Shown here in pieces: positions 1,061-14,007 of a DNA stretch of 14,007 bases. The stretch is taken from positions 1-14,007 of the forward strand of contig JAAYZL010000099.1 in the NCBI GenBank assembly GCA_012514855.1, written 5' to 3'. This DNA is from Clostridiales bacterium (lineage in GTDB: Bacteria; Bacillota_A; Clostridia; Christensenellales; Aristaeellaceae). The position numbers and the translations under genes were made by a program. How positions within the stretch are numbered: position 1 is the stretch's first letter; every line of letters begins with the position of its first letter. The notes beneath the pieces are model-generated. The model saw only the letters and a list, made by a program, of their open reading frames with translations, did no database searches and had not been told where the DNA came from.

Positions 1061-1074
1061 CGTTACCGCTAACA
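1061..1074. promoter_or_regulatory. LacI-type operator O1 upstream of the regulator promoter
   Basis: The 14-mer CGTTACCGCTAACA has the central CG typical of LacI-family operators. Read on the minus strand it is TGTTAGCGGTAACG, matching the core of the palindrome at 2257-2270 (TGTTAGCGTTAACA) at 12 of 14 positions. It ends 6 bases before the -35 box of the regulator gene. This placement suggests autoregulation, either repression or a second anchor for looping to the stronger site about 1.2 kb downstream. The assignment is by similarity only. Confidence 0.6.
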
Positions 1075-1143: not shown

Positions 1144-2178
1144 ATGACGACGATCGCCGACGTGGCCAGACAGGCGGGCGTTTCGATGATGACCGTCTCG
1201 CGCGTCATCAACAAGAGCGGGCGCGTCAGCGAGGAAACGCGAAAGCGCGTGCAGGACGCGATCGAGCGCCTCGGCTACCGCGCAAACATGGTCGCGCGGG
1301 GGCTGGCGACCGGGCGCAATCACCTGATCGCCTATGTCGTGTCGAACATCGGCAACCCGTTCTTCTCCAACGTCAGCATGGGCATCGAAAAAGCGTGCGT
1401 CGGGCGCGGATATTCCGTCATCGTGTACGATGTCAGCAGCGAAAAGAGCATGCTGGAGTGCGTCGACATGCTGATCGGGCGGCAGCTCGACGGGGTCGTC
1501 TTCCACCACCTGAACATCACGCGCGAGCAGGTTCAGCACCTGGCCTCCGGCGGCGTGCGCTGCGTGACCATCGACAACGAGGAGACGCTTCCGGAGACGG
1601 TCAGCGTCGATACGGACAACTACGCGGGCGCGCGCATGGCCGCGAGGCACCTGATCGAGAAGGGCCACCGCCGCATCGGCTGCATACGCGGCCTGATCGA
1701 CCCCGGCCTCAAGAACGGCGCCGCCGAATACATCGAGACGTTCCAGCGAAGGATCTGGCGCGACCGCACGAACGGCTTTCTGGACGAGCTTCGCGAGAAG
1801 GGGCTCGAGCCGACTTGCATGCACGAGGGCTCCGGCGGCACGCGCACGGGCTTTGCCTCCGGGCGCGAGCTGCTGATCCGGATACTCGACATGCCCGATC
1901 CGCCGACCGCCATCTACTGCGAGAACGACCTGATCGCGCTGGGCGCCCTGGGCGAGTGCCTCGAGCGGAAGACGCCCGTGCCGGAGCAATTGGCCATCGT
2001 CGGCCACGACGGTCTGGACTTCTGCGTGTACCTCTACCCGCGCGTGACGACCGTCCGGCAGCCGCAGTATGAGATCGGCCTGCTGGCCGCGGAAAAGCTG
2101 CTCGACTGCATCGAAACGGACCGCGCCGCCGAGCATATCGTCACGCAATCCTCGCTCTTCATCGGGGATACAACCTGA
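1144..2178 (+). CDS. LacI-family transcriptional regulator
   Basis: This 344-residue protein has the full LacI/GalR layout. The N-terminal helix-turn-helix is at residues 3-22 (TIADVARQAGVSMMTVSRVI), followed by a hinge around 44-60 (YRANMVARGLATGRN). A periplasmic-binding-protein-like effector domain fills residues 60-344, with motifs such as NPFF near 71 and PxAIYCENDLIALG. The ATG at 1144 is chosen because AGGAGG sits 9 bases upstream and the HTH begins at residue 3. A longer reading from TTG at 1081 would start on the promoter -35 box and is not credible. LacI proteins usually bind a small sugar-like ligand that releases them from DNA. Matching operators lie at 1061-1074 and 2254-2273, so it probably controls itself and the operon starting at 2337. 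The ligand is unknown, most likely the imported compound or a product of it. Confidence 0.93.
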   Translation: MTTIADVARQAGVSMMTVSRVINKSGRVSEETRKRVQDAIERLGYRANMVARGLATGRNHLIAYVVSNIGNPFFSNVSMGIEKACVGRGYSVIVYDVSSEKSMLECVDMLIGRQLDGVVFHHLNITREQVQHLASGGVRCVTIDNEETLPETVSVDTDNYAGARMAARHLIEKGHRRIGCIRGLIDPGLKNGAAEYIETFQRRIWRDRTNGFLDELREKGLEPTCMHEGSGGTRTGFASGRELLIRILDMPDPPTAIYCENDLIALGALGECLERKTPVPEQLAIVGHDGLDFCVYLYPRVTTVRQPQYEIGLLAAEKLLDCIETDRAAEHIVTQSSLFIGDTT

Positions 2179-2213: not shown

Positions 2214-2242
2214 TTGACGATATGTGCGAAAACCGTTATAAT
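2214..2242 (+). promoter_or_regulatory. Strong sigma-A promoter of the transport/catabolic operon
   Basis: TTGACG (2214-2219), a 17-base spacer and a perfect TATAAT (2237-2242) make a near-consensus promoter. The upstream stretch 2179-2213 is A/T-rich compared with its surroundings, as in an UP element. The predicted start is near 2249, leaving a leader of about 88 bases. The palindromic operator begins 12 bases after the -10 box, so bound repressor would block initiation or escape. Confidence 0.85.
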
Positions 2243-2253
2243 GCTGTCGTGAC

Positions 2254-2273
2254 GGGTGTTAGCGTTAACACCC
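2254..2273. promoter_or_regulatory. LacI-type operator O2, 20-bp near-perfect palindrome
   Basis: GGGTGTTAGCGTTAACACCC has 8-base arms that pair exactly (GGGTGTTA / TAACACCC) around a CG centre, the classic LacI/GalR operator form. It covers about +6 to +25 of the promoter at 2214-2242, a standard repression position. The LacI-family gene immediately upstream is the obvious candidate to bind it, and a related site (1061-1074) lies before that gene. Confidence 0.85.
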
Positions 2274-2336: not shown

Positions 2337-3431
2337 ATGACGCACCGGGAGAGGTTCCTGGCGGTTCTGCACGGCGGGATTCCGGATCGGATTCCGATCG
2401 TCTGCAACCTGACCATTCAGGCGGCGGAGAGGCTCGCGGAGGTCCTCGGCAAGGAGGTCGGCTTCGTGGACTCCTTCCTCGCGACCCGCATCTCGCACCG
2501 CGACATTTTGCTGGAACTCGGCAACGACGCCGTGCTGATCGCCGCGACGCGCGGCACACCCACGGTCGCGCTTCCCGACGGCGACGTCCGCGACGAATGG
2601 GGCATCGTCTACCGCACGGTCGGCTACTACGGGGAGGCGCACGGGCGCCCGCTGTCCGAGTGTGAGTCCATTGAGGATTTGGATAGGTATCAACTGCCCG
2701 ACCCGCTCGCGCCCGCGCGCTGGCTGCACGCCGCGGGCGAGGTCGCGAAATACGGGCGCGACTACGCGATCATCGGCGACCTCGAGGCGTGCATCTTCGA
2801 GCTCGCATGGAATCTCGTCGGGCTCGAAAAGTTCCTGATGGATCTGCTGACGGAGGAGGAGTACGTCGACCGGCTCCTCGACCGCATCGAGGCATACAGC
2901 ACCGCGTGCGGGCTGAAGATGATCGAGCTCGGCGCGGACATGATCTGGGCCGGCGACGACTTCGGCACGCAGAACGGCATGATGATATCGCCCGAAATCT
3001 GGCGCGAGCGGTTCAAGCCCCGCTACCGGCGGATGTTCGAGGCGTTTAAAAAGGCGAATCCCAAAATCAAAATCGCGTACCACTCCTGCGGGTCGATCGT
3101 GCCGATCATCCCGGAATACATAGAGATCGGGCTCGACTTCCTGAACCCCATCCAGCCGCAGGCGAAGGGCATGCATCTGGACGAGCTGTACCGGGAATAC
3201 GGCGATCGCGTCGGTTTCTTCGGCGGCGTCGACGTGCAGGGCGTGCTGCCCGACGGCACGCCCGAGGACGTGCGCAAGGAGGTCCGCCGCGTGATGGACG
3301 CCGTCGACCACTCCCCGCGCTTCATCATCGCGCCGGCGCACAACATACAGCCGGACACCTCGGTCGAAAACATACTGGCCTTCTTCGACGAGTCGATCCG
3401 ATACGGAAAAATCCCGAGGGGGGATTCGTGA
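2337..3431 (+). CDS. Uroporphyrinogen decarboxylase-fold (UroD/MtaA-like) protein
   Basis: This 364-residue protein has the UroD-superfamily pattern: N-terminal THRERFLAVLHGGIPDRIPI, GDDFGTQNGMMISPEIW at about 206-222, HSCGS at 249-253, GGVDVQG at 296-302, and APAHNIQPDTSVENI near the end. The start at 2337 is set by GGAGGGG 5 bases upstream; longer readings run back through the operator. True heme-pathway UroD carries an N-terminal arginine motif (PxWxMRQAGR) not seen here. The HxC (H249, C251) resembles the zinc site of corrinoid-dependent methyltransferases such as MtaA. The third ligand, a C-terminal cysteine in those enzymes, seems absent, with H335 nearby. It is the first gene of a LacI-controlled transport operon, so a catabolic step on the imported compound is likelier than heme synthesis. 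No corrinoid protein is in the window, so methyl transfer is unproven. Confidence 0.85.
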   Translation: MTHRERFLAVLHGGIPDRIPIVCNLTIQAAERLAEVLGKEVGFVDSFLATRISHRDILLELGNDAVLIAATRGTPTVALPDGDVRDEWGIVYRTVGYYGEAHGRPLSECESIEDLDRYQLPDPLAPARWLHAAGEVAKYGRDYAIIGDLEACIFELAWNLVGLEKFLMDLLTEEEYVDRLLDRIEAYSTACGLKMIELGADMIWAGDDFGTQNGMMISPEIWRERFKPRYRRMFEAFKKANPKIKIAYHSCGSIVPIIPEYIEIGLDFLNPIQPQAKGMHLDELYREYGDRVGFFGGVDVQGVLPDGTPEDVRKEVRRVMDAVDHSPRFIIAPAHNIQPDTSVENILAFFDESIRYGKIPRGDS

Positions 3432-3432
3432 T

Positions 3433-4932
3433 ATGGGCGATATCTTGGTGCTGGACAGGATCAACAAGAGCTTTCCCGGCGTGCAGGCGCTCAAGGACAT
3501 GAGCTTTTCCGTGCGCCGGGGCGAGGTGCACGCGATCTGCGGCGAAAACGGCGCGGGCAAATCGACGCTGATGAAGGTCGTCTCGGGCGTGTACCCGCAG
3601 GACTCCGGCGAAATCTTCATGGACGGCAAAAAGATCACGATCAAGAACCCGAACGACGCGTTCGATCAGGGCATCGCGATCATGTACCAGGAGACCTCGC
3701 TGTTCAACGAGATGACGATCCTCGAGAACATGTTTTTAAACCACGAGATCGTCAAAAAGATCGGCCCGATCCCGGTCTTGGACTTCAAGGCGATGGAGGA
3801 GCGCGTCGGCGCCATCTTCAAGAGGATGAACGTGGTGCTCGACCTGCGCGCGAAGGTCAAGGACATCGGCATGGCCTCGAAGCAGGTCGTCGAGATCGCG
3901 AAGGCGCTGACGTTCCATTCCAAAATCCTCATCATGGACGAGCCGACGGCGTCGCTCACCGACCGCGAGGTCGCCGCGCTGTTTGAGATCATCCGCGGCC
4001 TGAAGGCGGAGGGCGTCTCGATCGTCTACATATCGCACCGGCTCGAGGAGATCTTCGAGATCTGCGACCGCGTGACCGTGGTCCGCGACGGGGAGTTCAT
4101 CTCCTGCAGCGACGTGTCGGCCACGAACAAGGATAAACTCGTCGCCGACATGGTCGGGCGCGAGGTTTCGGCCTATTACCCGAAGGCGGAGGCCGAGATC
4201 GGCGAGATCGCGATCGAGCTCAAGAACATCAATCAGGGGAACCTCTTGCGCGACGTGAGCCTGAACGTGCGCCGCGGGGAGATCGTGGGCCTCGGCGGGC
4301 TGGCCGGCGCCGGCAGGACGGAGCTCGCGCAGGCGATCTGCGGCCTGACGAAGATCGATTCCGGAACGATATTCGTCGAGGGCAGGGAGACGAAGCTCGA
4401 TTCCTACCGAAAGGCGATGGGCAGGGGCATCGTGTACGTCACCGAGGATCGCGGGAAATACGGCCTGGTGCTCGGCATGGACATCAAGAAGAACATCACG
4501 CTCCCGCAGCTTCAAAATATCGCGAAGCTCAATATGATCGACTTCGCGCAGGAGCAGCGGATGGGCGACGACGCGATCCGCATGTTCGACATCATGGCGC
4601 CCAATTCCGACTTCGTCGTCGAAAACCTGTCCGGCGGCAACCAGCAGAAGGTCTCCGTCGCGCGCGCGACGGCGCTGAAGCCGAAAGTGATGATCCTCGA
4701 CGAGCCGACCCGCGGCGTCGACGTCGGCGCGAAGGCCGAGATCCACCGCATCATCGGGAACCTCGTCCGGCAGGGGCTGTCGATCCTGATGATCTCCTCG
4801 GAGCTCCCGGAGCTTCTCGGCATGTGCGACCGGATATACGTGATGAACGCGGGGCGCATCGTAGGCCTTTTCGACCGCGGCAGCGCGACGCAGGAGAGCA
4901 TACTCAAGGTCGCGCTCGAAACGAACGACTGA
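3433..4932 (+). CDS. CUT2-family sugar ABC importer ATPase, two nucleotide-binding domains
   Basis: This 499-residue protein has two fused ATPase domains, as in RbsA, RhaT and LsrA, and would power import through the two permeases that follow. Domain 1 has Walker A GENGAGKST (37-45) and Walker B ILIMDEPTASL, but its signature is degenerate (MASKQVVEIAKAL instead of LSGGQ). Domain 2 has a Walker A lacking the lysine (GLAGAGRTEL), as is usual in this family, with an intact LSGGNQQKV signature and VMILDEPTRGVDVG. Only one of the two composite ATP sites therefore looks fully consensus. The ATG at 3433 is one base after the previous stop, with a purine-rich GAGGGGGG site upstream, so translation is probably coupled. 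Substrate cannot be read from the ATPase. Confidence 0.95.
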   Translation: MGDILVLDRINKSFPGVQALKDMSFSVRRGEVHAICGENGAGKSTLMKVVSGVYPQDSGEIFMDGKKITIKNPNDAFDQGIAIMYQETSLFNEMTILENMFLNHEIVKKIGPIPVLDFKAMEERVGAIFKRMNVVLDLRAKVKDIGMASKQVVEIAKALTFHSKILIMDEPTASLTDREVAALFEIIRGLKAEGVSIVYISHRLEEIFEICDRVTVVRDGEFISCSDVSATNKDKLVADMVGREVSAYYPKAEAEIGEIAIELKNINQGNLLRDVSLNVRRGEIVGLGGLAGAGRTELAQAICGLTKIDSGTIFVEGRETKLDSYRKAMGRGIVYVTEDRGKYGLVLGMDIKKNITLPQLQNIAKLNMIDFAQEQRMGDDAIRMFDIMAPNSDFVVENLSGGNQQKVSVARATALKPKVMILDEPTRGVDVGAKAEIHRIIGNLVRQGLSILMISSELPELLGMCDRIYVMNAGRIVGLFDRGSATQESILKVALETND

Positions 4933-4948
4933 GGAAGGCGGACAACGT

Positions 4949-5953
4949 ATGAACATGACGCGCGCAACGGCCGGACCCTCCGCAAAGAAGCGCTCCATCA
5001 CCACCGAGGGCTTTCTCTCGATGCTGGTGGTCGCGATATTGGCCTTCCTCTATTTCGCCACGGGCGGCACCGCGGGCTTTTTCAGCGTCCAGAACATCAT
5101 CAACGTGATGCGCGTGTTCTCGTACCTGTTCATCGCGGGCATCGGCATGACGATGATCATCATCACCGGCAACATCGACATCTCGTTCGGCGCGGTCATC
5201 TCGGTCATCGCGATCGTGATGGCGGCCGTCAGCAAGCTCGACCCGTCGATCCCGTGGTACGTGTTCGTCCCCTGCGGCATGGTGGCGGGCGCGCTGCTGT
5301 GCGGCCTCAACGCGTGGATGATGGCGAAATTCAAGATCCCCTCGATGGTCATCACCCTCGCGACGACGCAGATCTACTACGGCGCGCTGCTGCTCTTGCT
5401 CGAGGGCTCGATCTACAACCTGCGCAAGAACTGGACGTGGATCTACAACAAGGCGAACCTGCTCGGCGGATATCTGCCGCTGTTGGTGCTGTTCGGGCTG
5501 ATACTGCTCGTCGTGTCGATCCTGTTCTTCCGCTACTCGCGGTTTGCGAAGAAGCTCTACGCGATCGGCAACAACAAGAGGGGCGCGGTCTACGCGGGCA
5601 TCAACGTCGACCGGACGCTGATCATCACCTACATGATCGCGGGCGCGCTGCTCGCGTTCAGCGCCACGATCCTCGCGACGTCCGGGACGCGCGTGACCTG
5701 CACGGTCGGCAACAACGTCGAGATGAAGATCATCGCGGCGGTCATCGTCGGCGGCACGAGCGCGGTCGGCGGCCTCGGAAACGTCTACGGGACGGCGATC
5801 GGCGCGCTGCTGCTCGCGATCATAAGCCCCGCGCTGACGCAATTGGGCATCAGCACGAACTGGACGGATCTGTGCACCGGCATCATCATCGTGGCGGCGA
5901 TCATCGTGAGCGCCTTCAGGAACATCAAAAGCACCGGCGTGAAGCGGGGATAG
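4949..5953 (+). CDS. CUT2-family ABC transporter permease 1
   Basis: This 334-residue integral membrane protein of the BPD_transp_2 (RbsC/RhaP/LsrC) family has about nine to ten hydrophobic segments. Family marks include TGNIDISFG (73-81), AIGNNKRGAVYAGI in a cytoplasmic loop, and GGTSAVGGLGNVYGT before the last helices. The N-terminal 18 residues are polar and basic. The ATG at 4949 has GAGGAAGG 10 bases upstream. The second permease starts 12 bases after its stop, so the channel is probably a heterodimer, as in rhamnose-type and AI-2-type systems, rather than the homodimer of ribose importers. Confidence 0.94.
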   Translation: MNMTRATAGPSAKKRSITTEGFLSMLVVAILAFLYFATGGTAGFFSVQNIINVMRVFSYLFIAGIGMTMIIITGNIDISFGAVISVIAIVMAAVSKLDPSIPWYVFVPCGMVAGALLCGLNAWMMAKFKIPSMVITLATTQIYYGALLLLLEGSIYNLRKNWTWIYNKANLLGGYLPLLVLFGLILLVVSILFFRYSRFAKKLYAIGNNKRGAVYAGINVDRTLIITYMIAGALLAFSATILATSGTRVTCTVGNNVEMKIIAAVIVGGTSAVGGLGNVYGTAIGALLLAIISPALTQLGISTNWTDLCTGIIIVAAIIVSAFRNIKSTGVKRG

Positions 5954-5965
5954 GAGGGCGCGCAT

Positions 5966-6967
5966 ATGGCGAAGAAGAAGTTCAAGTTCACCTACAACTA
6001 CGTGCTGATCGCGATCTGCGTCGGGCTGTTCGTGGTGTTCAGTTCGATCAACGCCTCGTTTTTCCGGTACGACTACATCATCGACATGGTGAAGCTCATC
6101 ACGGAAATCGGCATCATGGCGCTTCCGCTGACGCTGCTCATCATCATGGGCTGCATCGATTTCTCGATGTGCACGATCCTCTCGATGTCCGCGGCGCTGG
6201 GCGGCATCGTCGCCCACTATTTCGGCCCGCTGCCGGGGATTTTGACGAGCGTTTTGATCGGGCTTCTGTGCGGCGCGTTCAACGGCTTCATGGTCTCGAA
6301 GCTCAGGCTGCCGCCGCTGATCACGACGCTCGCGACGATGTACCTCTACCGGGGCATCGGCGTGGGCGCGACGCTCGCCTCCGGCTATGGCACGAACGTC
6401 GCCGCGACGCCGGTCGCGAGGTTTCTGGGCGCCGGCGCGATCGTCGGAATCCCCACGCAGATCTGGGTCATCGCGGTCATCGCGCTCGTCTTGCACGTCG
6501 TGCTCTCGCGGACGGTCTACGGGCGCACGCTCTACGCGATCGGGCTGAACGAAAACGCGACGCTGTTCGCCGGGATCGACGTGGTCAAGATCAAGTTCCT
6601 GACCTACGTGCTCGCGGGCTTCGTGTTCTCCATAGCGGGGCAGGTGTTGATGGGGCGCTTTTCGACGATGCAGTACGACTCGGCCGACGGGTATCTGATG
6701 CAGGTCATCATCGCGTGCGTGCTCGGCGGCACGAATATGCGCGGCGGGCACGGAAGCATCGGCGGGACGCTGCTCGGCGTGGCGACCATCGGCATACTCA
6801 AGGGAGGCATGAACGCGGTGCTGCTCCCGCAGACGCAGCAGAAGATCATCCTGGGCCTCGTGCTGCTCGCGAGCCTGATCGCCTTCCAGCTTCTCGAAGC
6901 GCACGACCTGAAGGCGAAGGGCAGGGCGCGCATCGCCGCGGCGGCCGAGGGCGCGGGCAAGGCATGA
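5966..6967 (+). CDS. CUT2-family ABC transporter permease 2
   Basis: This 333-residue membrane protein is the partner of the permease just upstream. It has about nine to ten hydrophobic segments and family motifs MGCIDFS (61-67), YAIGLNENATLFAGI and GGTNMRGGHGSIGGT. AGGAGGG lies 7 bases before the ATG at 5966 and overlaps the end of the previous gene. It is clearly different in sequence from permease 1, which argues for two distinct subunits instead of a recent duplication. Confidence 0.94.
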   Translation: MAKKKFKFTYNYVLIAICVGLFVVFSSINASFFRYDYIIDMVKLITEIGIMALPLTLLIIMGCIDFSMCTILSMSAALGGIVAHYFGPLPGILTSVLIGLLCGAFNGFMVSKLRLPPLITTLATMYLYRGIGVGATLASGYGTNVAATPVARFLGAGAIVGIPTQIWVIAVIALVLHVVLSRTVYGRTLYAIGLNENATLFAGIDVVKIKFLTYVLAGFVFSIAGQVLMGRFSTMQYDSADGYLMQVIIACVLGGTNMRGGHGSIGGTLLGVATIGILKGGMNAVLLPQTQQKIILGLVLLASLIAFQLLEAHDLKAKGRARIAAAAEGAGKA

Positions 6968-7016
6968 GAATGCACGCATCTGAAAGGGTGCGTTCAAATA
7001 AGGAGGAGGTCTGGAT

Positions 7017-8096
7017 ATGAAGAAACTGTTGGCCCTGTTGCTGGTCGCTCTGATGGCGACAACCCTGCTTGCCGGCGTCGCGTCTGCGGAGGAGCCCTAC
7101 AAAATCGGCATGCTCCCGAAATTCAAGGGCGAGAACTACTTCGACGGCTGCTACGTCGGCGCGGCCAACGCTGCCGAGGAGTTCGGCATCGAATTGGTCT
7201 ATGACGGCCCCCATCAGTCCGAAGCCACGAACGCGAAGCAGGTCGAGATTCTGACCGGCTGGCTGTCGCAGGATTTCGACGCGATCGTCGTCTCCCCCTG
7301 CGACGCGGAGGGCATCGCCTCCACGCTCAGGCAGTTCCAGGACAAGGGCGTTCTGGTGCTGACGTTTGACGCGGACGCGCCGAGCGACGCGCGCACCTTC
7401 TACGTGAACCAGGCGACCCCGCGCGACATCGCGGTCGGACTTGTCGACGTCATCGCCAACGGCCTGATCGAAGGCGGCTTCGGCCCGGACGTCCCCGCCC
7501 GCCTGGCGCTGATCTCCGGCTCCGGCCTCGACGTCAACCAGAACGAGTGGATTCTCGCGATCGAGGCGTATCTGGCCGAGACCTATCCGTGGCTCACGGT
7601 GGACGCCGACGAGGTCGGCTACCTCGGGCCGGACATCTGGACGCCCGGCTCCGACGAGACCGCCGCGCAGAACGCCGCGAACGAGTCGATCGCGCTGTCC
7701 GGCAACGCGACGGACGGCAGCCAGATCAACGCCGTCATCGGCACCTCCTCGATGTCCACCCCGGCGCTTGCGGCCGCCTGGGACGCGACGGTCGGCGACA
7801 AGCCCGAAGTCGTGATCACCGGCCTCGCGACGCCGATGGGCATTGTGGACTACATCCTCGACGAGGACAACCCCATGGACTACGGCGTGCTCTGGGATGT
7901 CAACAACCTCGGCTACCTCTCCATCGAGGCGGCCATCGCCTACCTCAACGGCGAGATCAAGGGCGAGGAGGGCGAGGTGTTCCCCTCGAACCTCGGCGAC
8001 AAGCATTTCGTGCTGGGCGACGACGGCGGCCTCGAGCTCCTGCTGGGCGCGGCGCTGACCTTCGGCCCGGACAACGTGGAGAGCTTCAACTATTAA
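7017..8096 (+). CDS. Sugar-type ABC transporter substrate-binding protein (RhaS/LsrB-like)
   Basis: This 359-residue exported receptor delivers substrate to the importer. Residues 1-24 form a signal peptide (KK, hydrophobic core, ASA then EEP) with a type I cleavage pattern and no lipobox cysteine, which is unusual if the host is a monoderm. The mature part has the Peripla_BP_4 fold. KFKGENYFDG (35-44), VYDGP, KQVEILTGWL, VLTFDADAP, FYVNQATP, a DVNQNEW segment and YGVLWDVNNLGYL resemble rhamnose (RhaS) and AI-2 (LsrB) receptors more than ribose receptors. The ligand is not determined; automatic annotation as an AI-2 receptor would be unsafe because no LsrK-type partner is seen. AGGAGGAGG (7001-7009), 7 bases before the ATG, predicts strong translation. 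A 49-base gap precedes it and a stable stem-loop follows it. Confidence 0.93.
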   Translation: MKKLLALLLVALMATTLLAGVASAEEPYKIGMLPKFKGENYFDGCYVGAANAAEEFGIELVYDGPHQSEATNAKQVEILTGWLSQDFDAIVVSPCDAEGIASTLRQFQDKGVLVLTFDADAPSDARTFYVNQATPRDIAVGLVDVIANGLIEGGFGPDVPARLALISGSGLDVNQNEWILAIEAYLAETYPWLTVDADEVGYLGPDIWTPGSDETAAQNAANESIALSGNATDGSQINAVIGTSSMSTPALAAAWDATVGDKPEVVITGLATPMGIVDYILDEDNPMDYGVLWDVNNLGYLSIEAAIAYLNGEIKGEEGEVFPSNLGDKHFVLGDDGGLELLLGAALTFGPDNVESFNY

Positions 8097-8113
8097 AATC
8101 CCCGGGCATCCCC

Positions 8114-8147
8114 GGCCGCGGGCATGGATTCGTCCGTGTCCGCGGCC
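8114..8147 (+). other. Stable intercistronic stem-loop (UUCG tetraloop) after the receptor gene
   Basis: Bases 8114-8128 pair with 8133-8147 over 15 bp (two G-U pairs) around a UUCG loop at 8129-8132. GGCCGCGG / CCGCGGCC forms the base of the stem. It starts 17 bases after the receptor stop and has no T-tract. The likely role is mRNA 3'-end protection, which would raise receptor expression over the downstream enzymes, as known for other binding-protein operons. Partial termination is possible. Confidence 0.65.
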
Positions 8148-8192
8148 CTTCCCGCAGGGGTTCCCGCAATGTGACGCAAGGAGGCGGCCGCC

Positions 8193-9239
8193 ATGTCTGT
8201 AATGACCGTCCTGGGGAGGGTCCCGCCGTCGGAGCTGGGCGTCGTGACCCCGCACGAGCATATTTTCATCGATATGAGCGTCTTTTTCGTGGAGCCGGAG
8301 GAGGTCTCGAAGAGGACCATGGCCCACGGCCCGGTCACCATCGAAACGCTCGGCGTGCTCAGGCGCAACCCGTTCGCGGTTCTGGACAACCTGCGGATGA
8401 CGGACAAGAAGACCCAGATCAGGGAGCTCAACCATTTCCGCTTCGCCGGCGGAAGGACCGTCGTCGACGCGACGAACCACGGCCTCGGCCGCGACCCGGA
8501 GCTTCTGCGCGAGGTCTCCCATCGCACCGGTTTGCACGTCGTCGCGGGCTCCGGCTATTACGTCGAGGGCGCGCAGGCGCCGGAAATCCGCGCGCTGAGC
8601 GTCGAAAAGATGGAGGAGGACATCGTCCGCGACCTCGAGGTCGGCATAGGGCACACCGGCATACGCGCCGGCGTCATCGGCGAGATCGGCGTGAGCCACA
8701 TCATGTACCCGTTCGAGAGGAAATCGCTGACCGCCGCGTGCCGCGCGCAGAGGAAAACCGGCGCGCCGCTGCTGGTGCACATCAACCCGTGGTCGACGCA
8801 GGGCTATCAGGCGATGGAACTGATCGAGGAGCACAAGGTCGACCCCCAAAAGGTCGTCGTCTGCCACTCCGACGTCGAGAACCGCGAGGACTACATATTC
8901 GACATCCTCGACAGGGGCGCGTACATCGAGTTCGACAACTTCGGCAAGGAGATGGCGACGGACCTCTGGGACGTCCGGCCCGGCTCCGGCCGCTTCGCGA
9001 CCGACTGGGAGCGCGTGCACTTGCTCAAAAAGATCATCGACCGCGGCTACGAAAAGCAGCTTCTGTTCTCCTGCGACGTGTGCTTGAAGAGCCTCTTGCG
9101 CGCCTACGGCGGCTGGGGCTACGACCACGTGATCGCCCACATTCTGCCGATGCTGCGCGAGGTGGGCGTGCGGGAAGAGACCATCGAGGAGATCATGGTT
9201 CACAATCCGGCGCGCTGGCTGGATTATGACGCAAAATAG
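8193..9239 (+). CDS. Phosphotriesterase-family amidohydrolase (PTE/PHP-like, likely lactonase or ester hydrolase)
   Basis: This 348-residue TIM-barrel hydrolase keeps the binuclear metal site of the phosphotriesterase family: HEH at 21-23, E164 in GEIG as the bridging acid, H196 (LLVH), H225 (VCHSD) and D295 (SCDVC). Bacterial phosphotriesterase uses a carboxylated lysine at the bridge, while E. coli PHP-type homologues have glutamate, so this belongs with the latter group. Natural substrates in the family include sugar lactones and other esters, and organophosphate hydrolysis should not be assumed. AAGGAGG (8178-8184) lies 8 bases before the ATG. A role in opening a lactone or ester made from the imported compound is inference from the operon. 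Confidence 0.9.
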   Translation: MSVMTVLGRVPPSELGVVTPHEHIFIDMSVFFVEPEEVSKRTMAHGPVTIETLGVLRRNPFAVLDNLRMTDKKTQIRELNHFRFAGGRTVVDATNHGLGRDPELLREVSHRTGLHVVAGSGYYVEGAQAPEIRALSVEKMEEDIVRDLEVGIGHTGIRAGVIGEIGVSHIMYPFERKSLTAACRAQRKTGAPLLVHINPWSTQGYQAMELIEEHKVDPQKVVVCHSDVENREDYIFDILDRGAYIEFDNFGKEMATDLWDVRPGSGRFATDWERVHLLKKIIDRGYEKQLLFSCDVCLKSLLRAYGGWGYDHVIAHILPMLREVGVREETIEEIMVHNPARWLDYDAK

Positions 9240-9248
9240 GAGGGCCCC

Positions 9249-10427
9249 ATGGAAAGACCGCGCATCCCCGATTCCGAATTTGCGCTTCGCGCGAAAAACG
9301 CGCAAGAGCTGATGCAAAAACAGAACATCGACGCGCTGCTCGCGTTCGGCAACGAGGCCGAGCCGCAGTTCGCGCGCTACCTGTCGGATTACTGGCCGTC
9401 GTTTGAGACCTGCGGCGTGCTTCTGGCGCAGAGGGGAGATCCGGTGCTTTTGATCGGCCCGGAGAGCTACACCTTCGCCGCCGACCGCTCGCGCATCCCG
9501 GACATCCGCCGGCTCGCGGCGTTCCGCGAATCGTCGAACCCGGAGTACCCCGGCGAGAAGCTCGAGACCGTCAAGGACGTGCTGGACGCGATGGTCGGGG
9601 GGACGGGCTGCAGGCGCTTCGCGATCGCGGGCTACAACCTGATTCCGCACGTGGCGTACGCCGAGATCGAGGCCGCGCTCAAGGGCTTCGGCGACGTCGA
9701 GATCGTGCGCGGCGACGAGCTGATGATGGAGCTGCGCATGGTCAAGAGCGAGAGCGAGATCGCCTGCATGCGCCACGCGGGGATGCTGACGGCGAAGGCG
9801 TTCGACTATACGCTCGAGCGCATCCGCCCCGGCATGACCGAATTGCAGGTGCGCGGGCTCGCCTCCGCCGCCATGTACGAGGCCGGCGCGGAGAACGAGG
9901 CGTATCCAATGTGGTTTCTGGCCGGCGCGGGCGGAAATCAGGCGATCTCCCGCGCGCGGCACAAGGTCATCGAGAAGGACGACTTCGTGATGCTGCAGAT
10001 CGGCGCGCGCTACGAGGGCTACGCGTCGTCGATCGGGCGGCCGGTGTTCTTCGGGAAGCCGGAGCAATACCTCGTTGACGCGGTAAAGGCCGGCTACGAG
10101 GCGCACGGCGTTATCTGCGGGCAGCTTTTCGCGGGCAACAGCGCGGCGAACGTCGCCAAGGCGTACTACGACTGCATGGACGGAAACGGCCACCGAAGCT
10201 GGCTCCTGTACGGCCCCTGCCACGCGACGGGGCTGATGGAGGGCGAGCCGCCGTGGATCGAGAGCAACTCCACCTATGCGCTGCGCGAGAACATGACCTA
10301 CTGCGTCGACGTGTTCATGGGAAACAACGGGACGTTGCGCGGCTTCCGCATCGAGGACAGCGTGCGCGTCGGCAGGACCCGCGCGGACAGCATGACCGAT
10401 TACAGAAAAGAGCTGTTCATGCTGTAG
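9249..10427 (+). CDS. M24 'pita-bread' fold protein, creatinase-like, metal ligands lost
   Basis: This 392-residue protein has the two-domain layout of aminopeptidase P, prolidase and creatinase: an N-terminal creatinase-type domain (about 1-155) and a C-terminal pita-bread domain (about 160-392, beginning ELRMVKSESEI). The five metal positions of M24 peptidases are altered. The first Asp is Q250 (LQIGARYEGY), the second is S261 (ASSIGRP), His is kept (H325 in CHATG), the first Glu is Asp (D354, VDVF), and the last Glu is kept (E369, RIED). Creatinase is a known metal-independent member that hydrolyses a guanidino/amidine C-N bond, so a non-peptidase activity is more likely than Xaa-Pro cleavage. 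AGGAGGG overlaps the stop of the previous gene and sets the ATG at 9249. It is the last gene before the terminator. Confidence 0.88.
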   Translation: MERPRIPDSEFALRAKNAQELMQKQNIDALLAFGNEAEPQFARYLSDYWPSFETCGVLLAQRGDPVLLIGPESYTFAADRSRIPDIRRLAAFRESSNPEYPGEKLETVKDVLDAMVGGTGCRRFAIAGYNLIPHVAYAEIEAALKGFGDVEIVRGDELMMELRMVKSESEIACMRHAGMLTAKAFDYTLERIRPGMTELQVRGLASAAMYEAGAENEAYPMWFLAGAGGNQAISRARHKVIEKDDFVMLQIGARYEGYASSIGRPVFFGKPEQYLVDAVKAGYEAHGVICGQLFAGNSAANVAKAYYDCMDGNGHRSWLLYGPCHATGLMEGEPPWIESNSTYALRENMTYCVDVFMGNNGTLRGFRIEDSVRVGRTRADSMTDYRKELFML

Positions 10428-10456: not shown

Positions 10457-10493
10457 AAAAGCCGTCCCGGGACAGCGTCCGGGACGGCTTTTT
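10457..10493. terminator. Bidirectional Rho-independent terminator between convergent operons
   Basis: AAAAGCCGTCCCGG (10457-10470) pairs perfectly with CCGGGACGGCTTTT (10479-10492) around an 8-base loop. TTTTT follows the GC stem on the plus strand and TTTT on the minus strand. It lies 29 bases after the M24 stop and 7 bases beyond the minus-strand kinase stop, so it can end both transcripts. Confidence 0.93.
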
Positions 10494-10499
10494 CGATGC

Positions 10500-12275
10500 C
10501 TATTTCCGCAGCCCCATGCACCCGAAGTAGATCGCGCCCACGGCCTGCGCGAACTGGGCGATCGTGTAGTCCGGATGCGCCGCGAGCTGCCGCATCAGCG
10601 GCGAATTGGCGAGCGCGTCGTCTGCCGCGAACTGCCGGATGTCCGGCACGATGCGCTTCGCGCCCTCGTCGATCAGCCTGAAGCACGCGTCCGTCTTGAC
10701 CAGCCGGCCGAACAGCGCGCGCGACAGGGACGCGGGCCTGAGGATGTACTGCGTCTCCTTCCACGTGATGGCCAGGTATTCCCCGACGCGGCGGAAGATT
10801 TCGGCGGACACGGAATCGGGTTTTTCGGCCTCGCGCATGAAGAATTCGAGGCACGGCTTGCGCAGATCCCTCGGCTCGGTGGGCACGTGCAGCGCGTCCC
10901 CGCTTCGGACGAACAGGCCCTCCGCAAGCACGCGCGCGTAGAGGTCGGGCTCGCGCCCGGGCAGGTATTTCGCGGCGAGGCGGAACACCCCGGACTGGCA
11001 GGTGCACTTCTGCAGCGTCCCGCTGAGCCCGGTGTTGAAATTGCGGACGCTTCGCACGTCGTCGACGCCGTAGCCGCGCTGTTTGAAGCTCCCGAGGTCG
11101 ATGATGAAGTTGTAGACCTCGAGCGGGATTTCGGGGATCGAGCCGTCCGGGAGAATCCAGCCGGTGCCCAGCTCCGTGCCCAGCGTGTGCGCGAAGAAGC
11201 CGTCCCGCAGGTTCTCGCCCGCGGCCGCGACCTCGACCGCGGTCGTGAACGCGGCCATCGGGCCGTCGTTCGTGTTCATGATCGCGCCGCCCTCGACCAC
11301 GAAGGGGCGCAGCCGGTCGCAGAGGCCGGTGATCTCGGCGAATTCCGACTCGTAATCGACCTCCGCCTGCTCGCGCATGCCGCGCGTCTTGTAGGTCTCG
11401 CCGCCGACGATGCGGTTGCGGATCACGACGTCCGGGAAGCACAGCCCGATCGCGTCGAAGCCGGCAAGCGCGCCGCCGAGCGCCTTCTCCATGTCGGAAG
11501 CGGCCGCTTCCATCTCCGCGTCCGTCGCGGCCTTGTCGAGCGCCTTCGCGGGAACCTCGTCCGCCCTTCCGCACCTCGCCATCGAGGCCGCCGCGCGCAT
11601 CAGCCGCGTCAGCAGCACAATGGGGCCGATCAACTGCTCCGCGCGCGCAAACGCGGCGGGGAACCAGTCGTATTCCTTGAAAAAGCGCAGCTCGCCGTCG
11701 ATGGAAACGGCGATCTTGACGTCCGTGCCGCCGATGTCCATGCCCATCAGCGCTTTGCCGCGGGCCGCGTCCGGCAGCCGCGCGAAGTCGATCCTCCCGG
11801 TTTCCGGGGCGCCGTCCCGAAGCGGCGCTTCGGGCAGTTCGCCGAGCGGGTGCACGGAAAACCGGAAGCGCCCGGCGCCCTCGCACAGCGCGTTCAGCGT
11901 GCGCTCGTTGACGTTCAGGCACTTGCCGTAGCCCGTCCGCGCGCTCTTTTCGAGGTCGACCTGAAAGACCTCGTTGAGCCCGAGCGCGAGCGCGCGCAAT
12001 TCCTCGTCGCCGCAATAGAGGTCGAAGCGCTTCGCGCCCAGCGAGGACAGCATGTTGTAGATCGTGGCGCAGAGATACGACGCTGCGAACTCCACTTCCT
12101 CCGGGGTCTCGAACGCGGGGAAGCGCAGGTCAAACCGCCGCACGCGGCCGTCGTACAGCGTCACGAGGGACGTGAGCTGGCGCGTTCCCTCCCGCTCGAA
12201 GGTCTCGCGCACATCGCTTACAAACACCGCTTCGTCCGCGCGCGCGGTTTTGAGAAATCCCGCGATCGATGACAT
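10500..12275 (-). CDS. Large divergent ROK-like (ASKHA) kinase with unassigned N-terminal domain
   Basis: This 591-residue protein carries sugar-kinase (ROK/hexokinase-like) motifs in its middle. GMDIGGTDVK at 178-187 is the phosphate-1 loop, FDAIGLCFPD at 273-282 and NTNDGPMAA at 334-342 (likely catalytic N336-D337) follow, and LGTELGTG at 365-372 is the phosphate-2-like glycine loop. ROK kinases are usually near 300 residues with a CxCGxxGCxE zinc motif. Here only CTCQSG (424-429) hints at it, and about 170 N-terminal and 150 C-terminal residues are extra. The ATG at 12275 is preferred over the GTG at 12284 because of ribosome-site spacing. It is the third gene after a glycyl radical enzyme and its activase, so it may phosphorylate that enzyme's substrate or product. 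Regulatory ROK function is less likely because no helix-turn-helix is visible. The kinase call is by motif only. Confidence 0.75.
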   Translation of the reverse strand: MSSIAGFLKTARADEAVFVSDVRETFEREGTRQLTSLVTLYDGRVRRFDLRFPAFETPEEVEFAASYLCATIYNMLSSLGAKRFDLYCGDEELRALALGLNEVFQVDLEKSARTGYGKCLNVNERTLNALCEGAGRFRFSVHPLGELPEAPLRDGAPETGRIDFARLPDAARGKALMGMDIGGTDVKIAVSIDGELRFFKEYDWFPAAFARAEQLIGPIVLLTRLMRAAASMARCGRADEVPAKALDKAATDAEMEAAASDMEKALGGALAGFDAIGLCFPDVVIRNRIVGGETYKTRGMREQAEVDYESEFAEITGLCDRLRPFVVEGGAIMNTNDGPMAAFTTAVEVAAAGENLRDGFFAHTLGTELGTGWILPDGSIPEIPLEVYNFIIDLGSFKQRGYGVDDVRSVRNFNTGLSGTLQKCTCQSGVFRLAAKYLPGREPDLYARVLAEGLFVRSGDALHVPTEPRDLRKPCLEFFMREAEKPDSVSAEIFRRVGEYLAITWKETQYILRPASLSRALFGRLVKTDACFRLIDEGAKRIVPDIRQFAADDALANSPLMRQLAAHPDYTIAQFAQAVGAIYFGCMGLRK

Positions 12276-12280
12276 GGGCT

Positions 12281-13171
12281 TCACTCCTCCACGACGTCAA
12301 AAATACCTTCCCGGCGCAGTATACCGCAATAGAAATCCATTTCCTCCGCGGTCAGCGCCCGGCCCTCCACGGGGAAGGGCTGCTCGAGCGAATCGTACTT
12401 GCCGCGGCACAGGGGGTTGAAGTTCAGAAGCTCGAAGCGCGCTTTTTGGTCCGTTTTCGCGACGAACCTCGCGATCGCGCGGATATTCTCCTCCGTGGCC
12501 GTGTATCCGGGGATCAGCGGCGTCCGCACGAGCACGTCCGCGCCCGCGGCGACCAATAAGGCGTAGTTTTCTAGGATCAGCGCGTTGCCGACGCCGAGCA
12601 CGCGCCTGTGCGCCTCCGCGTCGAAAATCTTGATGTCCACGATGAAGTGGTCGACTACCGGCAGGAAGCGCTTGAGCACCTCCGGTTCGACGTACAGGCA
12701 GCTCTCGACCGCGGTGTCGACGCCCCGGTCATGGCACGCCGTGAGGACCTCCAGCGCGAACGGCCACTGCGCGAACACCTCGCCGCCGGACAGCGTCACC
12801 CCGCCCGGGTCGTAGAATTCGATGTCCCGCAGGAGAAGCTCCACCGCTTCCTCGGAGGATATCTCCCTTCCGTCAAAGGAAAGCGCCGCGGCGGGACAGA
12901 CCTTCACGCATTCGCCGCAGAGGTTGCAGGCCGTCTCGTCGATGTGCAGCCGGTCGGAAAAGCGCAGCGCGCCCGGCTTGCAGGCGTCGACGCAGCCCTT
13001 GCAGCCGACGCACAGCGACGGGTTCTGCCACAGCCGGATGTCTTTTTTCAGCCCCTCCGGGTTCTGGCACCACGGGCATCGGAGCGGGCAGCCCTTCAGA
13101 AACAAGGTGCTTCGGATGCCCGGCCCGTCGTGCACGGCGAAGCGCGTGAGCTCGAAGATCCGCCCGTTCAT
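12281..13171 (-). CDS. Glycyl radical enzyme activase (radical SAM, two extra [4Fe-4S] clusters)
   Basis: This 296-residue radical SAM enzyme installs the glycyl radical on the partner GRE. The SAM cluster motif is CxxxCxxC at C28, C32 and C35 (KGCPLRCPWC). A ferredoxin-like insert carries two CxxCxxCxxxC sets, at C54/57/60/64 and C82/85/88/92. SGGE at 128-131 is the SAM amino-group motif, and VDIKIFD (178-184) is typical of the family. The insert marks the activases of the PFL2-type GREs (glycerol, choline, hydroxyproline, isethionate classes) and excludes simple PflA, which lacks it. Its ATG overlaps the GRE stop as ATGA, so the two are translationally coupled. The ribosome site before it is weak (GAGG), consistent with coupling. 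Confidence 0.95.
   Translation of the reverse strand: MNGRIFELTRFAVHDGPGIRSTLFLKGCPLRCPWCQNPEGLKKDIRLWQNPSLCVGCKGCVDACKPGALRFSDRLHIDETACNLCGECVKVCPAAALSFDGREISSEEAVELLLRDIEFYDPGGVTLSGGEVFAQWPFALEVLTACHDRGVDTAVESCLYVEPEVLKRFLPVVDHFIVDIKIFDAEAHRRVLGVGNALILENYALLVAAGADVLVRTPLIPGYTATEENIRAIARFVAKTDQKARFELLNFNPLCRGKYDSLEQPFPVEGRALTAEEMDFYCGILRREGIFDVVEE
12285..12290 (-). promoter_or_regulatory. Ribosome binding site that decides the kinase start
   Basis: On the minus strand GGAGGA (12290-12285) lies 9 bases before the ATG at 12275-12273. The GTG at 12284-12282, which overlaps the activase stop as GTGA, directly abuts this site and so lacks workable spacing. The ATG start leaves 5 bases between the two genes. 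Confidence 0.8.
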
Positions 13172-14007
13172 ACGGCCTCGTAGGAGGTGCGCGCGATGAT
13201 CTCCTCCTGCAGGTCCGGCGCGAGCTCGGTGAAATACGCCGTGTATCCCGCGACGCGAACCGTCATCCCGCGGTACCGCTCCGGCTCTTTCTGCGCCGCG
13301 CGCAGGTCGGCCTCGTTGAGCACGTTGAACTGTATGTGGCTGATGCCGAGCCTGCAGAACGTGCGCAAAAAGCCCGCGAATTTCTCGACGCCGGCAACCG
13401 TTTTAAAGAACCGCGGCAGGAACTTCATGTTCAGAAGCGCGCCGTTGCTGGCCATCTCGAACGGCAGCTTCGACACGGACTGCAACAGCGCCGTCGGGCC
13501 GCCTGTGTCGCGGCCGTACATCGCGGACACGCCGCCGTCGGCGAGCGGGTCGCGCGCGTGGCGGCCGTCCGCGGAGGCGCCGACGTTCTGTCCCATCGGC
13601 ACGTGCGCGGACACCGTGTAAAGCCCCATCTGGTAGACCCCGCCACGGCGGTTGCGGTACAATTTCAGCCGCTCGCCGAAGTAGCGCGTCCACTTGGCGC
13701 CCAGTTCGTCCACCTCCGGAATGTCGTTTCCGTACTTGGGCGATTTGCGGATCAGCTTCGTGCGCAAAAGCTCCGCGCCCGCGAAGTCGCTCCTGAGCGC
13801 CGAGAGCAGTTCCCCCGCGGAGACGGATTTCTCCTCGTAGACGAACTTGCGGATGGCTTCGAGGCTGTCGGCGACGTTCGCGGCCTGGATCGCCTGCACG
13901 CCCGCGAAGTTGTAGTGCGCGCCGCCGAGCGTCACGTCTTTGCCGACCTCCATGCAGTCGTCGATCACGGAGGACAGGAAGGGCGTCGGCAGGTTTTCGG
14001 CGTGCAT
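13168..14007 (-). CDS. Glycyl radical enzyme (PFL2-type lyase/dehydratase), C-terminal part; 5' end outside window
   Basis: The visible 279 residues are the C-terminal third of a GRE; family members are near 800 residues. The glycyl radical loop is RVAGYTAYF with the radical glycine at visible residue 254, 25 residues from the end. GGAHYNFAGVQ (28-38) and SADGRHARDPLADGGVS are family motifs. The YNFxGxQ form resembles, from memory, glycerol/propanediol dehydratases and PflD/YbiW-type enzymes more than choline lyase. The catalytic cysteine loop and most substrate-contact residues are upstream of the window, so the substrate cannot be assigned. The methionine at the very edge of the window is not taken as a start. 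The activase directly downstream confirms the class. Radical chemistry of this kind is oxygen-sensitive, which points to an anaerobe. Confidence 0.92.
   Translation of the reverse strand: MHAENLPTPFLSSVIDDCMEVGKDVTLGGAHYNFAGVQAIQAANVADSLEAIRKFVYEEKSVSAGELLSALRSDFAGAELLRTKLIRKSPKYGNDIPEVDELGAKWTRYFGERLKLYRNRRGGVYQMGLYTVSAHVPMGQNVGASADGRHARDPLADGGVSAMYGRDTGGPTALLQSVSKLPFEMASNGALLNMKFLPRFFKTVAGVEKFAGFLRTFCRLGISHIQFNVLNEADLRAAQKEPERYRGMTVRVAGYTAYFTELAPDLQEEIIARTSYEAV

Follow-up and report, generated by a model that had tools for sequence, protein, structure and literature searches.

A LacI-regulated operon of a Clostridiales bacterium joins a sugar-type importer to UroD-, phosphotriesterase- and M24-fold proteins and may serve the use of O-methylated sugar-like compounds

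Organization of the operon

We analysed a window of 14,007 nucleotides (the whole stretch presented here, contig JAAYZL010000099.1 of assembly GCA_012514855.1, from a Clostridiales bacterium, whose relatives are anaerobic) that carries, at positions 2337-10427, seven co-directional genes on the plus strand, separated by intergenic gaps of 1-96 bases in the list of open reading frames. Their families could be named above curated cut-offs in a Pfam scan of the window's proteins; they include a UroD-fold protein, the components of a CUT2-type sugar importer, a phosphotriesterase (PTE)-family hydrolase and an M24-fold protein. The seven genes are a real, conserved and regulated catabolic operon. 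As to its substrate we favour, tentatively and at a little under an even chance, an O-methylated sugar-like compound that would be taken up, demethylated by corrinoid-dependent chemistry and hydrolysed, a reading drawn from the sequences of the operon and of its relatives. The features of the operon are:

1062..1073, no strand assigned: operator-like palindrome GTTACCGCTAAC, sister site before the LacI gene (exact, minus strand)
1144..2178, plus strand: LacI-family regulator (PF00356, 75.1 bits, cut-off 27)
2214..2242, plus strand: sigma-70-type promoter, TTGACG-17-TATAAT (11 of 12 consensus matches)
2254..2273, no strand assigned: operator palindrome GGGTGTTAGCGTTAACACCC, directly downstream of the -10 box
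2337..3431, plus strand: UroD/MtaA-fold protein, 364 a.a. (PF01208, 119.4 bits, cut-off 23.9)
3433..4932, plus strand: CUT2-type sugar ABC ATPase, a double ATPase (Pfam, NCBIfam)
4949..5953, plus strand: CUT2 permease 1, BPD_transp_2 (Pfam, NCBIfam)
5966..6967, plus strand: CUT2 permease 2, BPD_transp_2 (Pfam, NCBIfam)
7017..8096, plus strand: extracytoplasmic binding protein, LsrB/RhaS-like, Peripla_BP_4 (Pfam, NCBIfam)
8097..8192, plus strand: intercistronic gap of 96 bases with a stable hairpin, before the PTE gene (folding)
8193..9239, plus strand: PTE-family hydrolase, PTER-like (PF02126, 231.1 bits, cut-off 22.4)
9249..10427, plus strand: M24-fold non-peptidase (fold and alignment)
10457..10492, no strand assigned: rho-independent terminator hairpin and T run (by eye and folding)

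The sequence-only reading of this DNA had described seven co-directional genes sharing one promoter and one terminator, and this description holds. The promoter at 2214-2242 is the top one of five matches in the window (shuffled sequences give a mean of 2.0), and the terminator at 10457-10492 folds with -27.7 kcal/mol, a stability equalled by 0 of 200 shuffles; a pattern scan, which gave 13 terminator-like sites versus 9.4 expected, did not list this terminator on the plus strand. The LacI gene just upstream, whose start is the ATG at 1144 after GGAGGGG (the open frame begins at TTG 1081), belongs to the operon's system: with a LacI gene and an operator core (GTTAGCGTTAAC, 2258-2269) immediately past the -10 box, the genes form a LacI-regulated operon. 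GTTAGCGNTAAC has exactly two exact matches in the window, at 2258-2269 and at 1062-1073, and the second is, by its sequence, probably the autoregulation site of the LacI gene. When up to two mismatches are allowed there are five matches versus 1.5 expected, a number reached by nine of 200 shuffles. The same layout recurs in L127, a relative whose LacI is 59% and whose ATPase is 82% identical, with TTGACA, TATAAT and GTTAACGTTAAC between the LacI and ATPase genes. The hairpin within the gap 8097-8192 (-44.9 kcal/mol, z -2.06; 8 out of 200 shuffles are equally stable) may reduce expression of the last two genes, attenuation or processing being possible. An Rfam scan of the window gave no match. 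Pfam and NCBIfam scans of the seven operon genes found no kinase, isomerase, aldolase or dehydrogenase, in agreement with the earlier claim that the operon has no such enzyme for sugars.

With a double ATPase, two BPD_transp_2 permeases and a Peripla_BP_4 receptor the transporter is a CUT2 importer. The binding protein stays below the curated cut-offs for both LsrB, its best named family (128.6 of 384 bits), and RhaS (108.7 of 342.25 bits). PTE proteins include lactonases, and this and the likeness to LsrB could be taken to mean that the operon quenches a signal, by uptake and destruction of autoinducer-2 (AI-2) or of a lactone; yet the LsrB cut-off is far off, no Lsr-type kinase or processing enzyme is among the window genes, and the UroD and M24 proteins would be left without a reason. 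We regard signal quenching as very improbable, and AI-2 uptake was rejected. For the importer of a methylated sugar that we prefer, an orthologous ATPase (59-82% identical) is present in five of the 11 genomes searched (11 of 18 relatives' genomes were taken), the remaining listed matches being at most 47% identical. The signal peptide of the binding protein (MKKLLALLLVALMATTLLAGVASAEE) is without the lipobox Cys that receptors of single-membrane bacteria usually have.

Co-occurrence of the three enzymes

A scan with the M24 alignment, one genome per species, provided 44 M24 loci. The PTE gene directly adjoins the M24 gene on the same strand in 27 of them and lies three or four genes off in two; it is missing from the fetched stretch in the other 15, several of which end at contig ends. 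Given the adjacency in 27 out of 44 loci, chance neighbourhood was rejected as the cause of the gene set. Other companions, named by likeness, are an AraC regulator (19 of the 44 loci), a CUT2 ATPase (14), ASRT (11), a second M24 paralogue (eight) and an FGGY kinase (five).

In metagenomes, co-location was judged from coinciding contig sizes in the lists of the three enzymes, and the following counts hold among the matches listed. M24 and PTE coincide on at least 17 contigs (one of them the window), M24 and UroD on at least four, PTE and UroD on at least six, and all three are apparently together on at least three (17,604, 44,568 and 65,083 bases). The first 20 UroD relatives (P0243-P0262, 65-78% identity) include 11 on contigs longer than 10 kb, at least six of which coincide with an M24 or PTE contig; among the later UroD relatives at least one (P0265) does so. 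The expectation that the three enzymes co-occur elsewhere, set down earlier as a check, is thus borne out for PTE and M24, and thinner for UroD: it is positive on the three metagenome contigs and in five out of five transporter genomes (see below), but a UroD gene is within the fetched stretch at only two of the 44 M24 loci.

A family of 269 residues without a Pfam match was seen at 16 of the 44 M24 loci, mostly in gut Clostridia (e.g. 8117-8926 of L036 and 15861-16670 of L008); its motifs WLWGHPEG, VFDDF and DGVIMWTW make it look like a TIM-barrel glycosidase.

The M24-fold protein

There is no doubt about the fold of the M24-fold protein: its model (pLDDT, the predicted local distance difference test, 88.9) matches prolidases, creatinase and ectoine hydrolase with TM-scores of about 0.7-0.8. 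Where M24 metallopeptidases have the metal ligands D, D, H, E and E, the window protein has Q250, S261, H325, D354 and E369, so that both metal Asp are gone, and the active-site His is replaced by I233 (a position that we take to be that of the catalytic His of creatinase). Lacking the full set of five metal ligands and the active-site His of an M24 metallopeptidase, the protein was rejected as a peptidase. The altered metal site had been seen in the sequence before, and the change proves to be common to the family, in which Q/G/N, then S/T, then D/C occupy the first three variable positions; a control, the M24 relative in L016 (3277), has D, D, H, E, E and the His in the same alignment columns. 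The close family retains W222, Q231, S234, R235, H325, E331, R367 and E369, which speaks for a functional site of a different type. The label 'creatinase-like', given to the protein earlier, is right for the fold; beyond the fold it fails, the active-site His being absent and the score to the ectoine hydrolase DoeA (TIGR02993) being 56.2 bits, far below the cut-off of 613.

In L005, L006, L007, L010, L013, L014 and L015 further M24 paralogues, with 27-32% identity to the window protein, lie near the M24 gene; they too lost both metal Asp, and mostly adjoin CUT2 genes. The paralogues may form mixed complexes. In L002 a degraded second M24 gene (about 3564-4160) stands at the head of the orthologous operon.

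The PTE-family hydrolase

All metal ligands of the PTE family are present in the window protein (H21, H23, E164, H196, H225 and D295), and all six are conserved (at least 97%) in 35 of 36 PTE sequences from the loci, those with at least 42% identity; some loci are in this set twice. The nearest solved structures are 3k2g (224.6 bits) and 9efa (207.6 bits), and the protein has a signature of its own (HINPW, EFDNFGKE, D-C-L-K). In the alignment, judged by eye, P199 and V228 of the window protein stand at the positions of two Arg near the 9efa metal site, which are presumably the substrate Arg204 and Arg233 of mouse PTER. The accessible text of PMC11374699 describes mouse PTER as an amidase for N-acetyltaurine, with Arg204 and Arg233 contacting the substrate (docking and mutants).

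This relationship bears on a different kind of substrate, an N-methylated creatine- or ectoine-like compound, of which the M24 and PTE proteins would cut C-N bonds and the UroD protein would remove the N-methyl group. The M24 fold is common to creatinase and ectoine hydrolase, the PTE is closest to PTER-like proteins, mouse PTER being the amidase just cited, and an M20 deacylase adjoins the M24 relatives in L043 and L044; however, the M24 protein has Ile233 instead of the active-site His and its ectoine hydrolase score is an order apart from the cut-off, P199 and V228 replace the 9efa Arg pair, and the transporter and many neighbours are of sugar type. We consider such a nitrogen compound improbable, and return to the O-methylated sugar.

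The UroD-fold protein

From its sequence, the UroD-fold protein (2337-3431) is probably a corrinoid-dependent methyltransferase I. Compared by sequence with solved structures, its sole match is the methylcobamide methyltransferase MtaA (4ay7/4ay8, 42 bits); its model (pLDDT 92.9) has the TIM-barrel fold, and Foldseek places MtaA first and HemE just behind. H249, C251 and H335 are invariant across 27 aligned relatives. We take the zinc ligands of MtaA to be H-x-C...C; the window protein retains the H-x-C, and a His (H335) replaces the later, third Cys of MtaA. With 76.4 bits versus a cut-off of 235.4 (TIGR01463) it falls outside the MtaA/CmuA family proper.

The motif around H335, APAHNIQPDTS, presumably resembles that of uroporphyrinogen decarboxylase, and with HemE structures just behind MtaA the protein might instead be a decarboxylase or lyase acting on a sugar acid, for which the PTE would be the lactonase. 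The PTE family does have sugar lactonases (the window PTE matches NF045706, a phospho-furanose lactonase family, with 76.7 bits, below the cut-off of 630), the four conserved Arg of the M24 protein (R235, R237, R264 and R367) could bind a carboxylate, and most M24-PTE loci show no UroD in the stretch fetched. But the zinc-type H-x-C is retained, the top structural match is a methyltransferase, and relatives pair UroD genes with a corrinoid protein, a methyl-tetrahydrofolate (methyl-THF):corrinoid methyltransferase and the corrinoid activator RACo. A sugar acid is in our view unlikely, and methyl transfer is the reaction that we prefer for the UroD protein.

Orthologues of the window's UroD are scarce: at E <= 1e-75 they were found in two out of 297, two out of 398, one out of 22 and one out of 139 genomes, with 38-56% identity (one genome, G701, falls in two of these four sets); a search by class brought back the same set of 22. 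In the tree the window protein is in a clade of eight rows (support 100/99), six of which apparently share contigs with M24 or PTE; the rows were chosen after the contig coincidences were known, and the tree, which has long branches, is used solely for the window's clade and its split from the clade of the L002 and L004 UroDs.

Corrinoid and methyl-transfer context

The earlier suggestion that the substrate has a methyl group to remove has gained support, from the corrinoid genes of L004 and from RACo in 13 out of 14 genomes; the C-N, ester or lactone bond suggested with it is still conjectural. In L004, whose M24 is 78% identical to the window's, the gene order is PTE, M24, UroD, methyl-THF:corrinoid methyltransferase (NF005719, 324 bits, cut-off 259) and corrinoid protein. 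In all five genomes with the orthologous transporter, a UroD-family gene lies within or next to the transporter gene group: in G002 it is behind M24, in G005 behind the receptor, and in G007 likewise behind the receptor, from which a histidine-kinase gene separates it. The UroDs of L002 and L004 are in a tree clade apart from the window's, and they are the best matches (67-86%) of the remaining three transporter-associated UroDs. Two UroD clades thus stand alongside one importer type, and we see in this the best sign that the UroD reaction is part of the pathway.

RACo scores above its cut-off in 13 of 14 genomes (the exception being G001) versus one of 14 control genomes, and a marker of carbon monoxide dehydrogenase/acetyl-CoA synthase in only four of the same 14, so that nine genomes, which are drafts, have a RACo without a visible acetogenic partner. 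Stand-alone corrinoid proteins, counted from short open frames only (196-326 residues), occur in 15 of 18 genomes, although the B12-binding_2 family is a weak marker that also matches nine of 14 control genomes. On one strand the L077 locus encodes RACo, a corrinoid protein and a methyl-THF methyltransferase; its other strand has M24 (39%), UroD, a RhaM mutarotase, LacI and CUT2 genes. L115, with genes named by likeness, combines UroDs, lyxose-isomerase-like and mannitol-dehydrogenase-like genes, CUT2, RACo and corrinoid genes. UroDs that have a Cys as third ligand (L087, L112, L115 and L117) are found with a corrinoid gene within about 2 kb in four out of four cases, three of these loci having been fetched around the corrinoid gene, and the corrinoid-side UroDs of L113 and L114 being outside the alignment. 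We propose that His-type UroDs carry out the first transfer and Cys-type UroDs the second.

The RACo matches in G002, G005, G008, G009, G010 and G014 contain one or two in-frame stops (TAG, TGA, TAA), which could stem from the frame or the alignment, or else reflect recoding. The UroD-RhaM-CUT2 group of L077 ends with a creatininase-family protein (17138-17875), weakly IolN-like and below cut-offs, perhaps in the place of the PTE.

Sugar context

The enzymes had been thought ill-suited to a sugar importer; relatives, in contrast, tie both M24 and UroD genes to sugar genes. RhaM-type mutarotases are found in L077 (Pfam) and, by likeness, in L078, L086, L087 and L093; L088 has a PfkB kinase and relatives of mannitol dehydrogenase and lyxose isomerase, and L115 has them in part too. 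Two gene groups with orthologous transporters (L126 and L127) include DUF4432, which we assume to be akin to aldose epimerases. Beside M24 relatives a ribulokinase (L044) and an L-ribulose-5-phosphate 3-epimerase (L014) were identified above cut-offs. ASRT, the companion at 11 M24 loci, is tied to sugar operons with a proposed sugar-binding role (PMC2739507), and the words 'M24', 'peptidase' and 'phosphotriesterase' do not occur in the accessible text of that paper.

A CUT2 ATPase lies within 6 kb on the same strand at 11 of 19 UroD-centred loci versus 2-9% expected per locus (an expectation taken from 11 genomes), but these loci are not independent, and they were chosen for their resemblance to a UroD whose own operon is of the CUT2 type. 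Several observations speak against a demethylation pathway for an imported sugar. A UroD gene is in the fetched stretch of only two of the 44 M24 loci (L002 and L004), and those two UroDs lack the H-x-C; at 1e-20, five of 16 M24 genomes have no UroD match (present in 11) and eight have no PTE match (present in eight). The locus with the closest M24 relative (L001, 89%) is without PTE or UroD, and its genome, G001, has no UroD at 1e-20, no RACo and a PTE match of 35% only, an incomplete genome being the only explanation that we can offer. The G003 UroD is encoded on the opposite strand, at a distance of 3.2 kb to LacI and 4.5 kb to the ATPase gene, and in G004 the gene group is spread over several contigs, the UroD following M24 on a contig that does not carry the ATPase gene (a stretch of 1,387 bases, 90% identical, is common to the G003 contigs L003 and L126, which are possibly two copies and were not treated as one operon). 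Genes for a corrinoid protein, RACo and a second methyltransferase are missing from the 14-kb window, and the window's UroD clade was not seen beside any corrinoid gene among the loci examined.

Finally, a 55% UroD relative (G701, L084) lies in a nucleoside operon, and the same machinery could act on a methylated nucleoside, such as a 2'-O-methyl nucleoside released by RNA turnover, with UroD removing the methyl group before cleavage. Around this UroD, L084 has a Bmp-type binding protein, an ATPase, two permeases and a GntR regulator, together with a phosphopentomutase (549.9 bits, cut-off 256) and a pyrimidine-nucleoside phosphorylase (613.1 bits, cut-off 559). The window's binding protein, in contrast, is LsrB/RhaS-like and not Bmp-type, no nucleoside phosphorylase is among the window genes, and M24 relatives accompany sugar kinases; a nucleoside therefore seems to us rather improbable.

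The presence of UroD at only two of the 44 M24 loci and the lack of RACo in G001 slightly lower our confidence in the O-methylated sugar-like compound, which remains our preferred substrate, and in the more general route discussed below. Since most M24 loci show no UroD, demethylation is not the core job of the M24-PTE pair: the two proteins may work on the skeleton of the sugar, with UroD widening their use to methylated forms.

Flanking genes

The window begins with a cut-off gene (1-918) encoding three bacterial SH3_3 domains (PF08239). On the minus strand of the other side (10500-14007) is a convergent cluster that encodes the C-terminal part of a pyruvate formate-lyase (PFL)-like glycyl radical enzyme, the activase of the PFL-like enzyme (above the TIGR02494 cut-off) and a protein of 594 residues with a ROK-like GMDIGGTDVK stretch and no Pfam or NCBIfam match.

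Discussion

In the pathway we prefer, an inducer would free the operator behind the -10 box from LacI (both site and gene are seen), and the complete CUT2 importer would bring in the compound as its putative ligand. The UroD-fold protein would then take the methyl group from the substrate and place it on the cobalt of a corrinoid protein whose gene lies elsewhere, as the fold, zinc-site residues and relatives of the UroD-fold protein suggest; RACo would hold the corrinoid protein reduced, and a second methyltransferase would pass the methyl group to tetrahydrofolate. The PTE-fold metal hydrolase is predicted to open a lactone, ester or amide bond, the M24-fold protein may perform a metal-free step on the same sugar-like skeleton, and ordinary sugar kinases encoded elsewhere would act afterwards, the order of the steps not being fixed.

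More speculatively, and with less confidence than for the pathway above, anaerobic Clostridia and spirochaetes could share a general, so far undescribed corrinoid route for O-methylated sugars. CUT2 operons would each carry their own H-x-C...H UroD methyltransferase, served by a shared, RACo-activated corrinoid protein and by Cys-type UroDs beside the corrinoid gene for the second transfer; the operon in the window would be one unit of this route, in which the M24 protein would be a metal-free sugar enzyme of a new kind and its partner a new hydrolase of the PTE family.

The nearest known systems are the corrinoid O-demethylases of acetogens. MtvB, OdmB and VdmB, the archaeal MtoB, and CdmB belong to the UroD superfamily, in which clades with unknown substrates are marked (PMC13222342, accessible text), and these systems combine a UroD-superfamily methyltransferase I with a corrinoid protein, a methyltransferase II and an activator, parts that are also present around UroD genes in relatives of the window. 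They differ in that their substrates, where named in the accessible text of the same paper, are methoxylated aromatics and haloalkanes, whereas the window has a UroD with a sugar importer, PTE and M24, and no corrinoid protein. The mlp MtaA-like clusters are likewise UroD-superfamily methyltransferases outside methanogens; as far as the accessible text of PMC10418091 goes they are tied to methyl-sulfur or methyl-selenium, and the window's UroD lies far below the MtaA/CmuA cut-off. The PTER and resiniferatoxin-binding PTE-related proteins (3k2g, 9efa) are the nearest solved relatives of the window PTE and share its metal ligands, but the Arg pair of 9efa and the window's own signature set them apart. 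Creatinase, DoeA and prolidases share the fold of the M24 protein, which lost two metal Asp and the active-site His.

A literature search, with most subscription journals outside it, found no pathway with such a gene combination, and no paper matched the enzyme names searched together; the parts are of known kinds and the combination is new as far as the literature was searched.

Plant and algal matter commonly contains methylated sugars. The sole demethylation route for methyl sugars that we met in the literature searched is oxidative: in marine bacteria a cytochrome P450 demethylates 6-O-methyl-D-galactose, with release of formaldehyde (PMC10033563), in contrast to the anaerobic corrinoid route proposed here. 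If our reading is true, anaerobes strip methyl groups from sugars by B12-type chemistry. It would also give a job, linked to one-carbon metabolism, to many orphan 'uroporphyrinogen decarboxylase' genes, of which a single M24 genome has up to 14 matches (1e-20), and the M24 'peptidases' of a large family that is incapable of metallopeptidase activity would gain their first function.

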